From: Pararhodobacter zhoushanensis
GTDB lineage: Bacteria; Pseudomonadota; Alphaproteobacteria; Rhodobacterales; Rhodobacteraceae
Reading direction: 5' to 3'
DNA length: 64,000 bases
Assembly (NCBI RefSeq): GCF_025949695.1
Contig: NZ_JAPDFL010000001.1
Span: 3,475,501-3,539,500 of the forward strand
Shown here piece after piece: positions 53,177-57,997 of the stretch. Every line of letters begins with the position of its first letter. Position 1 is the first letter of the stretch. The translations under genes were made by a program, and so were the position numbers. Below the pieces are notes generated by a model, which worked only from the letters and a program-made list of their open reading frames with translations, was not told where the DNA came from and did not search any database.

Positions 53177-54094
53177 ATGGCACACAAGGTCTTCATTGAT
53201 GGCGAAGTCGGCACCACCGGCCTGCAGATCCGCGAGCGGCTGCAAGCGCGGGGCGACATCACGCTGATTCAGGTCGACCCCGCCCGCCGAAAAGACCCCG
53301 CCGCCCGGGCCGACGCGCTGGCCGAGGCCGATGTGGCGATCCTGTGCCTGCCCGACGACGCCGCGCGCGAAGCCGCAGCGCTGTCCGCCCCGCATGGCAC
53401 AAGGCTGATCGACGCCTCGACTGCACACCGCATCGCGCCCGACTGGGTGTTCGGCTTTCCGGAAATGGCCGCAGGCCAGCGCGCCGCCGTGGCGCAGGCC
53501 ACCCGTGTGTCGAACCCCGGCTGCTGGTCCACCTGCGCCATCGCCCTGATCCGCCCGCTGGTCGAGGCCGGTCTCATCGACCCGGCCAATCCGCCGGCGA
53601 TTTCCGGCGTTTCGGGCTACACCGGCGGCGGCAAGGCGATGATCGCGGAATATGAAAGCGGCGATGTTAGCGGCTCGTTCCTCTACGGCGCGACCCAACA
53701 GCACAAACACCTGCCCGAGATCCAGACCCACGGCCTGCTGTCGACCGTGCCGGTTTTCGTGCCCTCGGTCGGTCATTATGCTCAGGGCATGGCTGTCGCC
53801 GTCCATGTGCGCGATCTGGGCGAGGCCGGGTTCAAAGCCGCCGAAGACGCGCTGCAAGCCGCCTATGAGAACGAGCGTTTCATCGCCCTTGTCGTTGCCG
53901 AAACCCACGAACCCCGCGTCTGGCCCGAGCGTCTCAATGGCACCAACCGGCTGGAACTTTCGGTCCACGGCAACGCCAAAACGGGTGCCGCCACGCTGAT
54001 CGCCGTGCTCGACAACCTTGGCAAGGGCGCCTCGGGCGCGGCGGTGCAGAACCTCAACATCATGCTCGGCGTGGACGAAGCCGCCGGGCTTTAA
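53177..54094 (+). CDS. argC: N-acetyl-gamma-glutamyl-phosphate reductase, type 2
   Basis: 305 residues. [18 protein letters not shown] at the N-terminus and [17 protein letters not shown] with the catalytic Cys define the short type 2 Arg[17 protein letters not shown] and [12 protein letters not shown] follow. Reduces acetylglutamyl phosphate in arginine synthesis. Divergent from lldD with 147 bp between; the DUF427 gene lies 19 bp downstream on the same strand. Confidence 0.95.
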
Positions 54095-54113
54095 CCCAAA
54101 AGGGGGAAAGACG

Positions 54114-54398
54114 ATGGCACGCGCACTCTGGCAGGGGCAGGTCATTGCCCAGACCGACACGCCTGTGATGTTCGACAACAACGTCTATTTCCCGCCCGAG
54201 GCGCTGAACCGCGACTTCTTCAGCGCCTCGGACCACACCTCGCTCTGCCCCTGGAAGGGCACGGCGTCCTATTACACCCTCACCCATGGCAACGCGGTCA
54301 GCGCCAACGCCGCCTGGGTCTACCGCGACCCGCTGCCCAAGGCCGAGGCGATCCGCGATCACGTCGCCTTCTGGCGCGATGTGACGGTCGAACCTTAG
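54114..54398 (+). CDS. DUF427 domain protein
   Basis: 94 residues, MARALWQGQVIAQTDTPVMF, then NNVYFPPEALNRDFF and SLCPWKGTASYYTL, the signature block of DUF427 (small beta-barrel, unknown function). A GGGGGAAAG site precedes the ATG. Its end meets the convergent end of the tandem-repeat GFA gene. Confidence 0.9.
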   Translation: MARALWQGQVIAQTDTPVMFDNNVYFPPEALNRDFFSASDHTSLCPWKGTASYYTLTHGNAVSANAAWVYRDPLPKAEAIRDHVAFWRDVTVEP

Positions 54399-55194
54399 GC
54401 GTTCGCCCCTGCATCGGGATCGCCCGTAGCGACCGCGCCTTGACGCCCGGCACACCGTTCCGCGTGATCGCCACAACCGGGGCACCGCCCTGCTGGGCAT
54501 CGGCAAAGCTCCCGCCCCCGCAAGTCTTGCAGAGCTGGTTCTGGATGGATCTGCCGGACAGGTATTCGGCCAGACTGTCCCCGCCCGTCAGCCGGGTAAA
54601 TGTCTCGCGCGTGGCAATGGCCTGCACAAAGCCCATCCGCTCGCAGGCAAAGCTCCCGCCCCCGCAGGCCTTGCAGAACTGCCGCTGGATGATCTTCTTG
54701 CCGGACAGGTATCCGGTCAGACTGTCCCCGCCCCTCAGCCGGGTAAATGTCTCGCGCGGGGCCATGGCCTGCACAAAGCCCGTCCGCGCATAGGAAAAGC
54801 TCCCGCCGCCCCAAGTCTTGCAGAACTGCCGCTGGATGATCTTCTTGCCGGACAGGTATCCGGCCAGACTGTCCCCGCCCGTCAGCCGGGTAAATGTCTC
54901 GCGCGCGGCCATGGTCAGCACAGAACCTTTCCACGCACAGTCAAAGCTCCCGCTGCCCCAAGTCTTGCAGAACTGCCGCTGGATGATCTTCTTGCCGGAC
55001 AAGTATCCGGTCAGACTGTCCCCGCCCGTCAGCCGGGTGAATGTCTCGTGCGGGGCCATGGCCAGTACACAGCCCGTCCGCTGGCAGCGCGAACAGCTGC
55101 AGGTGATCGCGTTGTCGCTGTCGACGTCGGTCTCATGGCATACGGTGCCGCACTGGTAGCCGCCGGTGTCCTGCTTCGACGCCATCGCCTCCAT
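54395..55194 (-). CDS. GFA-family protein with a fourfold internal tandem repeat (probably decaying)
   Basis: N-terminus MEAMASKQDTGGYQCGTVCH, then ITCSCSRCQRTGCVLAMAP, is that of GFA/CENP-V-like zinc proteins. A normal member (about 120-130 residues) would have one segment from RTG to the FCKTCG zinc ligands. Here it occurs four times in one open frame, with the ligand pair reading FCKTWG, FCKTWG, FCKACG, FCKTCG. The frame does not stop at the expected place: the likely stop is TAA at 54395 in the next frame, while the main frame runs antisense through DUF427 to 54298. Only the first unit keeps CSRCQ and only the last two keep both Cys of the second ligand. Confidence 0.75.
54505..55089 (-). 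repeat. Four tandem units of 144-147 bp within the GFA gene
   Basis: The string aaagctcccg recurs at 54505, 54649, 54796 and 54943 on the plus strand, spacing 144, 147 and 147 bp, each unit containing the near-identical block gatcttcttgccggacaggtatccgg (diverged in the first) and cagccgggtaaatgtctcgcg. All spacings are multiples of three, so the protein frame is kept at 48-49 residues per unit. Confidence 0.92.
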
Positions 55195-55986
55195 TGTCGG
55201 CGCGCAGCCGCCAACCGCACGATGACCGCCACCCCACTTGCCGCAACATGGTCTTCCCCGTCGCGGCCCGGCTGCGGCATTGGGCGCAAAGCTTGCAAGG
55301 ACGCGTTGGCAGCGATGAGATCGCGATCCGCTGGAGAGGATCAAGCGGGGCGCCGGTCGCTGCAACCCGGCTGCTCCTTGCCGTCAGAAGTCCGCGCATG
55401 CTGGAAGGCTTGCCGGTAACTTCCCCGCGCGCGACGGGTCCACAACACGGGTGATCCCGACCAAATGAAGCCCGCCCAGACCGGCAGACTTGCCGGTCAC
55501 CTCCCCGCGCGCGGGCGGAACGAGGCCAGAGATTGCGCGACCGAGCCTGGGAGAACCCCGTTTCACCGGCGGCAAAGCGCAGCGCGTTGGATCGAAGGGA
55601 CCGGCAGCACTGGACGGTCCCGCTGGAATTGCCACGCCCCAGCCCAACAGCGCTGACGTCGCCGCTGCCCATTCGGCACCGCAAGGTTCACCTGAGCAGA
55701 CTGCGCCGATACCCCGACGGTCACGCTTACCTCTCTTCCCTATCCTCCTGCCTTGTCGTTGCACCCACGTCGTCCCCTCCGACAGACGCCCCCACGACCC
55801 GTCGCCAACCATCTGCGCCCGTTCTCGCACCGTGCCGCCCCCAGCACGGCGATCGCGCCTGAGCAGACAATCGACCGGCGTATGACGCGCAACCCGGTAC
55901 ACAGACCTTAACCCGCCAATTCTTGCGACTTCGTTAAACGCCCCCTGCCAAGACCCGCGCACCCTCGGGACATCCTTGCCAAATGG
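55195..55986. other. Non-coding, repeat-bearing stretch
   Basis: About 790 bp with long but motif-free Arg/Pro-rich frames on both strands; I call no gene. It contains a 25-bp direct repeat, cttgccggtaacttccccgc and following bases at 55409-55433 and again at 55489-55513 (23 of 25 identical, 80 bp apart), and looks like decayed or repeat-derived DNA. Confidence 0.55.
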
Positions 55987-56047
55987 TTAACGCAAACCGC
56001 CAACCCCTTGTTTCCAATCACCCCAGCCCCCTGTCCCATCAGGGGAC
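55987..56047. repeat. 61-bp shared element, copy A
   Basis: Aligns without gaps to 60749-60809: TTAACGC, CCGC, AACCCCTTG, CACCCC, CTGTCCCATC and GGGAC are identical and equally spaced. The right end is an inverted repeat GTCCC-ATCAG-GGGAC. It lies downstream of phoX, past its terminator. Confidence 0.7.
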
Positions 56048-56053
56048 ACCGCC

Positions 56054-56086
56054 AAAAAAATCGGGCCCCCGTTTGGGAGCCCGACC
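56054..56086 (-). terminator. Intrinsic terminator of phoX
   Basis: On the minus strand TCGGGC-t-CCC-AAAC-GGG-g-GCCCGA followed by seven T residues, 25 bases after the phoX stop. Confidence 0.88.
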
Positions 56087-56110
56087 TTTGTTCACAGATC
56101 TTGACGGGTG

Positions 56111-57997
56111 TCAGCCCACCAGACCGCCATCCTCGCGCGTCACCGCCACCACCGACGAGCGCGGCACGCCGTTGCCGGTGGGCCAGGTGCCGCCCGGGTG
56201 CTGGATGCCGACGAACATCGTGCGGCGATCCTCGGACCAGCACAGGCCGGTCACTTCCGAGCCGTTCGGCCCGGTCAGGAAGCGGGCCATCGCGCCGGTT
56301 GCCGGATCACCGGCCAGCATCTGGTTGTTGCCCTGACCGGCAAAGTCACCCTCGTTGCTGTCGTCGCCGTCGGTCTGCACCCAGAGCAGGCCGGTCGAGT
56401 CAAACGCCATCCCGTCGGGCGAGTTGAACATGTTGCCCGCCGTCACGTTGTCCGAGCCGCCGTAAGCGTCCGAATGCACCGCCGGGTTGCCCGCCATCAC
56501 ATAGAGATCCCAGGCAAAGCCGGTCGCCGCGTGGTCGTCGTCATGGGGGAACCAGCGCACGATCTGGCCGTACTGGTTGGCTTCACGCGGGTTGGGGCCG
56601 CCCACCGGCGTCTCGTCGCCGCCCGCGTTGGTGCGGGTGCCGCGGCGGGTGTTGTTGGTCAGGCAGCAATAGGCCTCGACCGCGTAGGGGTTGACCGCGA
56701 CCCATTCGGGCCGGTCCATCGTCGTCGCCCCCACCGCCGAGCCAGCGGTCCGCGTGAAGATCAGCAGCTCGGCCATCTCCATGCCGGTCGATTCAGGCGT
56801 CAGGGCCAGCCATTCGCCGGTCATGTCGTCGTTGAATTTGGCGGCATAGAGCGTGCCGTCATCCAACAGACCCTCGGTCGAGCCACCGGGGGTATAGACG
56901 CCGTTCGAGACGAACTTGTACAGGAACTCGCCGCGCTCATCGTCGCCCATATAGACAACAACCCGCCCGTCACGCGCCAGAACCACCTCGGCATTCTCAT
57001 GCTTGAAACGGCCCAGACCGGTGTGCTTGACCGGGGTCGAGGTCGGATCGGTCGGATCAATCTCGACCACCCAGCCCGCGCGGTGCGGCTCGTTCGGCTC
57101 CTGCGTCACGTCGAAACGCGCGTCCCACTTGTGGTAGTCATAGCCCCAACCCTCGGGGTCGATGCCATAACGGGTGTAGCCGGCAGCGATCTTCTCGTCC
57201 GCCGGCATCTCACCGGTCGCGCCGAAGTAGCCGTTGAAGTTTTCTTCGCAGGTCAGATACGTGCCCCAGGGCGTCTTGCCCGAGCCACAGTTGTTCAGCG
57301 TGCCCAGCGCCTGCATCCCCGACGCATCGGCCGAGGTCTGCATCAGCGCATGGCCCGCGGCAGGCCCGGTCAGCGTCATCGGCGAGTTGTGGTGCAGGCG
57401 GCGGTTGAACGGGCTGTCCACGACAACGGACCAGCCGTTCTCAGTCTCGGCGATCTCCATCACCGACACACCCTGCAACTGCTGCAGCTTGAGAACGTCC
57501 TCGGCATTGGCCGGAACCCCCTCTTGCGCGGCGGGCAGGTTGATGTCGTTGTTGGTGTATTCCTGGTTGATCGCGATCAGCTGATGACCGCGGAACGAGA
57601 AGGTCTCCATCCCGTCGGTGTTCTCACCAAACACGCGGTCCGACCCGGCAACCGGGCCACCCTCGGCCACATCGTAGCCCTGGGCGTCCGAGAACAGCGC
57701 ATCGCCCCAGCTGACCAGCACCTGAGAGCGGTAACCAGCGGGCACATGCACCACGCCATCGGTCTGCGCGTCGATCGGGGTGAAGGGGAAGCGCGCGGTG
57801 GTCGAGGCCAGCGCGCTGCGCCCGCTCAACATCCCGGTGCCCATCACCATGGCGCCCGAGCCAAAGGCCAGCACACCGCGCAGGAAACCCCGGCGGTTCA
57901 AGGCGCTCTCGACCACACGGTCAAAATCATTCTCAGGAGAGCGCGGGAAGTTCAGCTCGTCCCACTCGTCGGCGGAGAGTTTGGTCTTGTCGGTCAT
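56111..57997 (-). CDS. phoX: PhoX-type alkaline phosphatase (DUF839)
   Basis: 628 residues from ATG 57997. A Tat signal follows about 35 residues: LNRRGFLRGVLAFGSGAMVMG, ending SALAST. The mature protein has WGDALFSDAQGYDV, YTNNDINLP, GKTPWGTYLTCEENFNGYFG, RFKHENAEVVLARDGRVVVY, and YMGDDERGEFLYKFVS, all typical of PhoX, a calcium/iron-dependent periplasmic phosphomonoesterase exported folded by Tat. Late blocks are FNSPDGMAFDSTGLLWVQTDGDD and MFVGIQHPGG. A tandem Pho box 75 bp upstream indicates induction by phosphate starvation through PhoB. Confidence 0.94.
   Translation of the reverse strand: MTDKTKLSADEWDELNFPRSPENDFDRVVESALNRRGFLRGVLAFGSGAMVMGTGMLSGRSALASTTARFPFTPIDAQTDGVVHVPAGYRSQVLVSWGDALFSDAQGYDVAEGGPVAGSDRVFGENTDGMETFSFRGHQLIAINQEYTNNDINLPAAQEGVPANAEDVLKLQQLQGVSVMEIAETENGWSVVVDSPFNRRLHHNSPMTLTGPAAGHALMQTSADASGMQALGTLNNCGSGKTPWGTYLTCEENFNGYFGATGEMPADEKIAAGYTRYGIDPEGWGYDYHKWDARFDVTQEPNEPHRAGWVVEIDPTDPTSTPVKHTGLGRFKHENAEVVLARDGRVVVYMGDDERGEFLYKFVSNGVYTPGGSTEGLLDDGTLYAAKFNDDMTGEWLALTPESTGMEMAELLIFTRTAGSAVGATTMDRPEWVAVNPYAVEAYCCLTNNTRRGTRTNAGGDETPVGGPNPREANQYGQIVRWFPHDDDHAATGFAWDLYVMAGNPAVHSDAYGGSDNVTAGNMFNSPDGMAFDSTGLLWVQTDGDDSNEGDFAGQGNNQMLAGDPATGAMARFLTGPNGSEVTGLCWSEDRRTMFVGIQHPGGTWPTGNGVPRSSVVAVTREDGGLVG

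Follow-up and report, generated by a model that had tools for sequence, protein, structure and literature searches.

A GFA/CENP-V-like gene of Pararhodobacter zhoushanensis with four in-frame tandem units, probably a pseudogene or close to one

Introduction

In a gene of the GFA/CENP-V type on the minus strand of the window (the 64-kb stretch of Pararhodobacter zhoushanensis DNA analyzed here), about 40 percent of the gene's length is present in three extra copies, and the reading frame is kept throughout. The resulting four tandem units of 147, 147, 147 and 144 bp (55098-54514) raise the question of whether a metal-binding protein is being rebuilt as a repeat protein, or whether the array accumulated in a gene that was no longer under selection. 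The evidence presented below favors an odd relic over a novel type of protein.

The array and its reading frame

Tandem Repeats Finder locates the array at 54502-55081, with a period of 147, 4.0 copies, 88% matches and a score of 866, which is the highest of the eight rows that the program returns for the window (the runner-up scores 75). Unit starts lie at 54505, 54649, 54796 and 54943, and the spacings of 144, 147 and 147 are also those of repeat family D2. These data and the minus-strand frame bear out an earlier, sequence-only reading of this DNA, according to which a stretch extending to the second zinc-ligand pair occurs four times in frame. That reading's unit starts are confirmed, as are its ligand pairs, which from the N-terminus to the C-terminus are CKTW, CKTW, CKAC and CKTC. 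Its assignment to the GFA family is likewise upheld by a Pfam match (PF04828) of 3.1e-9, with 37.4 bits compared to a cut-off of 24.3. NCBIfam yields only sub-cut-off matches for the protein, and also for P0001, the one other version of it that was found (see below).

The open reading frame extends from 55365 down to 54298; the end at 54395 given by the sequence-only reading belongs to an open reading frame in another frame. The start consistent with the family is an ATG at 55185, and P0001 uses the same start. From this codon the frame covers 54298..55185 (minus strand), and similarity to the GFA family stops near 54400, beyond which ~33 C-terminal residues lacking a family counterpart are encoded antisense through the end of a DUF427 gene. 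A search of Rfam with 53900-56300 matched nothing, and a promoter and terminator scan of the locus, which is uninformative for this host organism, found none.

All parts of the gene lie on the minus strand. A single-copy N-terminal part (55099..55185) contains a QCG motif, and Tyr takes the place of the first Cys in the CxC pair. It is followed by unit 1 (54952..55098), which holds most of the CxCxxC trigonal-zinc site, unit 2 (54805..54951), unit 3 (54658..54804), at the end of which the frame of P0001 shifts, and unit 4 (54514..54657), which is one codon shorter. In the single-copy C-terminal part (54400..54513), 6 of 12 near-invariant family positions are changed or, in one case, gapped. 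When the protein is placed on a profile of 80 homologues, the N-terminus plus unit 1 occupies model positions 1-83, unit 2 positions 34-85, unit 3 positions 36-82, and unit 4 plus the C-terminus positions 34-116. Thus, the locus corresponds to one GFA gene whose middle segment (model positions ~34-82) has been multiplied, and whose ends are single-copy.

Homologues with a single unit

The 80 homologues derive from a profile scan in which each species was represented by one genome; it produced 128 confirmed loci, of which 80 were kept and all 80 used (L034-L113). By motif count, every one of them contains one unit, and the proteins are 110-129 residues long with start codons picked by rule. The window gene, with its four units, departs from this one-unit architecture of ~110-130 residues that characterizes this subfamily of GFA proteins. 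Searches at narrower taxonomic ranges gave a similar picture. Among 394 genomes of the family, 12 besides the window's own match at 1e-8, with one match each; ten of these 12 homologues form set A1, from which the more distant L030 and L031 were excluded. L007 and L010 gave no BLAST match. At the level of the order, a profile of A1 matches 261 of 390 genomes at 1e-10, and inspection by eye of the matches listed revealed no other frame with two adjacent matches that would constitute a second GFA array. Within the genus, eight of the 17 other genomes have GFA matches (E 0.001, 25-34% identity), and the remaining nine have none.

The single-unit structure of all 80 homologues, and of the one match in each of 12 other family genomes, agrees with the earlier statement that no GFA protein built in this way was known. 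A literature search on GFA/CENP-V repeats or domain duplication likewise retrieved no such protein, judged by title among the matches listed.

Zinc sites and conserved residues

In Gfa of Paracoccus denitrificans, the published description (PMC4682968) gives the trigonal zinc ligands as C52, C54 and C57 (CxCxxC) and the tetrahedral zinc ligands as C31, C33, C99 and C102 (CxC plus CxxC). The trigonal site is present once in the window protein, as CSCSRC at the start of unit 1, and units 2 to 4 lack it. The tetrahedral site is incomplete: the N-terminal CxC is replaced by YQC, so that Tyr stands at the Cys equivalent to C31 of that protein, a column at which 79 of the 80 homologues have Cys. The CxxC pair is complete only in units 3 and 4. 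It had been proposed that the repeats differ in metal-binding capacity. The ligand letters do differ among units, but the remaining residues of both zinc sites are missing from units 2 to 4. The Tyr and the absence of CxCxxC from units 2 to 4 were both overlooked in the sequence-only reading.

Residue losses extend beyond the zinc ligands. At least 90% conservation among the 80 homologues is observed at 42 alignment columns, of which 32 were scored after exclusion of the 10 that fall within the stretches used for picking homologues. The window gene retains 12 of these 32 in no copy (one as an alignment gap), including the zinc-ligand Cys. By the same count, the 80 homologues lose 0-5 positions, and the 10 family homologues that were found without picking patterns, a set that partly overlaps the 80, lose 0-3. 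When all 42 columns are counted, five positions within the repeated segment are retained in none of the four units (columns 44, 52, 64, 65 and 71), and correspond to the F of LAF, the L of FxL, the F and N of YLFN and the H of HxFC; column 64 is a gap in unit 4. Because these five positions are kept by none of the units, constraint on the gene presumably eased, or changed, before the expansion.

Divergence among the units

Pairs of units differ at 17-34 positions with the missing codon of unit 4 aligned as a gap, and at 17-45 without this adjustment. Pooled over the four units, the NG86 pN/pS ratio is 1.01, with values of 0.67 to 1.66 for the six pairs, which are not independent, given the common ancestry of the units and possible exchange of sequence between them. 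Control comparisons of single-unit homologues (240 pairs with <28% DNA difference) have a median of 0.29 and a maximum of 0.63. Relative to the majority unit, the synonymous fraction of the 55 changes is 0.27, and a neutral simulation of ~3,000 rounds gives 0.288 +/- 0.063, the majority unit being a rough stand-in for the ancestor, given that the junction of unit 1 is original sequence. The substitutions therefore look like those of a pseudogene lacking constraint at the protein level, both in pN/pS and in the neutral-like synonymous fraction. It should be noted that fresh duplicates of a functional gene may also show relaxed pN/pS.

The window copy contains no stop and no frameshift over the four units, and the only indel among units is a whole codon. 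The simulation predicts 1.7 stops, with a probability of ~0.18 that none occurs; thus, the open frame offers little support for function. Its persistence had been taken as a sign of recent function, an argument that is not sustained in view of this probability, a pN/pS of ~1 and the 12 of 32 conserved positions kept by no copy. An uninterrupted frame could have arisen by chance (0.18 for the lack of stops, times roughly one third, by our estimate, for the period), yet it leans toward constraint. Base composition is also mixed in this respect. GC contents at codon positions 1, 2 and 3 are 0.55, 0.57 and 0.83, compared with 0.60-0.71, 0.43-0.49 and 0.80-0.88 in four neighboring genes. Position 3 is still gene-like, and the usual contrast between positions 1 and 2 is gone.

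Differences are distributed unevenly along the units. Outside the first 48 nt, units 1 to 3 differ from one another at 5-9 of 99 positions, whereas their 39-nt junctions, which follow the SF motif, differ at 9-13 positions, and the last third of unit 4 differs from the other units at 13-14 of 45 positions. The high identity among units claimed earlier masks this unevenness. With junction (39 nt) and core (the next 51 nt) delimited after the sequences had been inspected, the contrast is strongest for units 2 and 4 (12/39 versus 1/51, Fisher P = 1.3e-4), followed by units 2 and 3 (11/39 versus 2/51, P = 0.0017) and units 1 and 2 (13/39 versus 4/51, P = 0.003); the remaining three pairs give P = 0.07-0.14. 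In the core, pS is 0.126 and pN 0.115 (pN/pS 0.91); in junction codons, the values are 0.203 and 0.281 (1.38). Because pS and pN are both lower in the core, and purifying selection would reduce only pN, we infer that the core of units 1 to 3 was homogenized through exchange or conversion.

A second version of the protein

P0001 is the only match to the four-unit protein in a large protein collection (8000 candidates scored), and was again the sole match when a collapsed single-unit query was used (2 candidates), in a search that requires shared words and similar length, such that further relatives may exist. Its record lists a longest contig of 127,008 bases, compared with 4,423,864 for the contig of the window, which suggests that it stems from a different assembly of the same or a closely related strain. 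P0001 is identical to the window protein over 175 residues, which comprise the N-terminus and units 1 to 3. Past residue 175 its sequence corresponds to the next frame of the window DNA, as would follow from a one-base deletion, runs into unit 4 and ends at residue 198. This one-base shift, which is read from the protein, may reflect true variation between strains, or an error of sequencing in one of the two records.

As for the disrupted frame expected of a pseudogene, the frame is shifted in P0001, a single record, and open in the window copy. Whether most strains carry a premature stop was a question raised by the sequence-only reading. The sole other version does carry one, although this is a single case and may reflect a sequencing error.

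Predicted structure

An AlphaFold2 model of the whole protein, built with 11 sequences, has a mean pLDDT of 54. Block means are 71-90 for residues 1-80 and 231-260, and residues 98-232 are below 50. Foldseek matches the model to 3FAC (E 2.3e-6 over 78 columns) and 1X6M (E 0.01), and by sequence 3fac_A matches residues 10-77 (E 4.8e-4). These results are compatible with a single GFA fold that carries an inserted segment. The low confidence in the extra units may indicate disorder, or merely a shallow alignment.

A lineage-specific insert between argC and phoX

The GFA gene resides in an insert between argC and phoX (54095..56055, ends approximate). Orthologues of argC (E 1e-50) were found in five of the 17 other genomes of the genus, and in all five phoX directly follows argC with a gap of 140-381 bp that lacks the insert. 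In the window, the two genes are ~2 kb apart and are separated by a DUF427 (PF04248) gene, the GFA array and ~850 bp more, for which none of six frames has a Pfam match better than E 0.1. Within this stretch, upstream of the GFA gene, a direct repeat of 71 nt is present at 55363-55433 and 55443-55513 (73% identical, 80 bp from start to start). The DUF427 gene (54114..54398, plus strand) is convergent with the GFA gene and, at its end, overlaps with the tail of the latter's frame. Only one of the 17 other genus genomes has a DUF427 match, which is weak (36% identity over 65 residues). DUF427 is absent from the surroundings of the GFA homologues at all 92 loci inspected (12 with ~1.5-kb flanks and 80 with flanks of up to 3 kb, some shorter, with some genes in both sets).

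When the insert DNA was compared with 295 family genomes, 35, including the window's own, matched at E 0.001 or better. The best matches from other genomes are 68-72% over 114-242 bp and involve single-unit relatives, in the first GFA unit and N-terminal part. The matches listed include no full-length copy of the insert. Plasmid and phage collections gave zero matches at the DNA level, and the regions around its two ends (54041-54200 and 55951-56130) share no common word of 9-14 bases. The insert is lineage-specific, and was likely acquired from outside.

A copy of a dispersed element of ~80 bp lies at the right border of the insert (55967-56050, minus strand). The element consists of a core, TGTCCCNNGATGGGACAG, followed by a spaced GTTAA-like motif. 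The core has eight exact matches in the genome, including the copy at the insert border, and none in the 17 other genus genomes; a reversed-pattern control gave no matches. The element may be either a site for a regulator or a short repeat confined to this lineage.

Origin of the array and alternative explanations

The locus is probably best explained as a lineage-specific GFA/CENP-V gene under little or no constraint, in which an array was produced by intragenic duplication and unequal exchange, and which is now a pseudogene or nearly so. The order of events, the mechanism of expansion and the loss of function that we infer are as follows. Constraint on the gene would have eased or changed ahead of the expansion. 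Recombination at short homology might then have joined the segment just past CKTCGxxSF to the segment at CxCSRCQR, with a joined period that happened by chance to be a multiple of three. Later copies could have arisen through unequal exchange or slippage between units, and the same processes may have homogenized the core of units 1 to 3 while the junctions stayed divergent. Selection on function would be required at no step. Evidence against decay comes from the codon-sized indel, the gene-like GC3, and the survival of the CxCxxC site and two CxxC pairs.

Some of these same features could be accommodated by a functional repeat protein, in which a single GFA fold is built from the N-terminus, unit 1 and the C-terminus, and the extra units constitute an expandable insert with a new role, whose junctions diversify under selection. 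The open frame with its codon-sized indel and the gene-like GC3 fit such a protein, the higher pN/pS of the junctions can be read as diversifying selection, and the residues lost before the expansion could signal an altered function. However, pN/pS is near 1 in the core too, a zinc ligand and 11 more family positions are kept by no copy, P0001 is truncated, the array is present in no relative examined, and residues 98-232 have no confident model; this alternative is therefore unlikely. We consider it rather less likely that a GFA-derived repeat protein is only now emerging, with a middle segment that includes part of the metal-site scaffold serving as an expandable in-frame repeat, with junctions diversifying faster than the core, and possibly with on/off switching by single-base slippage in a G-run at the end of a unit.

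Existence of one open and one shifted version, otherwise identical over the residues seen, would also be expected if the GFA gene had remained functional through the expansion and was lost only recently by the frameshift in P0001. The neutral pattern among units and the residue losses common to all of them indicate instead that relaxation predates this frameshift, and make a recent loss decidedly improbable. Finally, tandem arrays are commonly mis-assembled, and units might have been multiplied or wrongly joined. An assembly error is nevertheless unlikely because P0001, apparently from another assembly, contains units 1 to 3 and the start of unit 4. Moreover, the 17-34 differences between units mean that reads can place them, and we regard an artefact as very improbable indeed.

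If the gene is a pseudogene, it provides a small, clean case of an in-frame tandem array that originated in GC-rich DNA and remained uninterrupted with no help from selection, and it cautions that an uninterrupted frame across repeats says little about function. Should the protein be produced, it would represent a metal-binding fold caught in the course of turning into a repeat protein.

Comparison with known systems

Single-unit GFA proteins (PF04828), which occur mostly in Alpha- and Gammaproteobacteria, align with the window protein over the N-terminal CQCG region, CNCSRC, CKTC and the C-terminal part, with 35-55% identity over the best-matching segment and, for the ten members of A1, 32-46%. 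They differ from it in unit number and in losing 0-5 of the 32 conserved positions, compared with the 12 that the four-unit gene keeps in no copy. Gfa from Paracoccus denitrificans (1X6M) and RSP_2168 from Rhodobacter sphaeroides (3FAC) share their fold with the confidently predicted part of the model, whereas the window protein lacks the first tetrahedral-zinc ligand and carries the segment up to the second ligand pair fourfold. Pseudogenes with intragenic tandem duplications are a known general kind. The window gene has in common with them an in-frame array, relaxed constraint and a frame-shifted other version, and is unlike them in that the window copy still reads through all four units without interruption.
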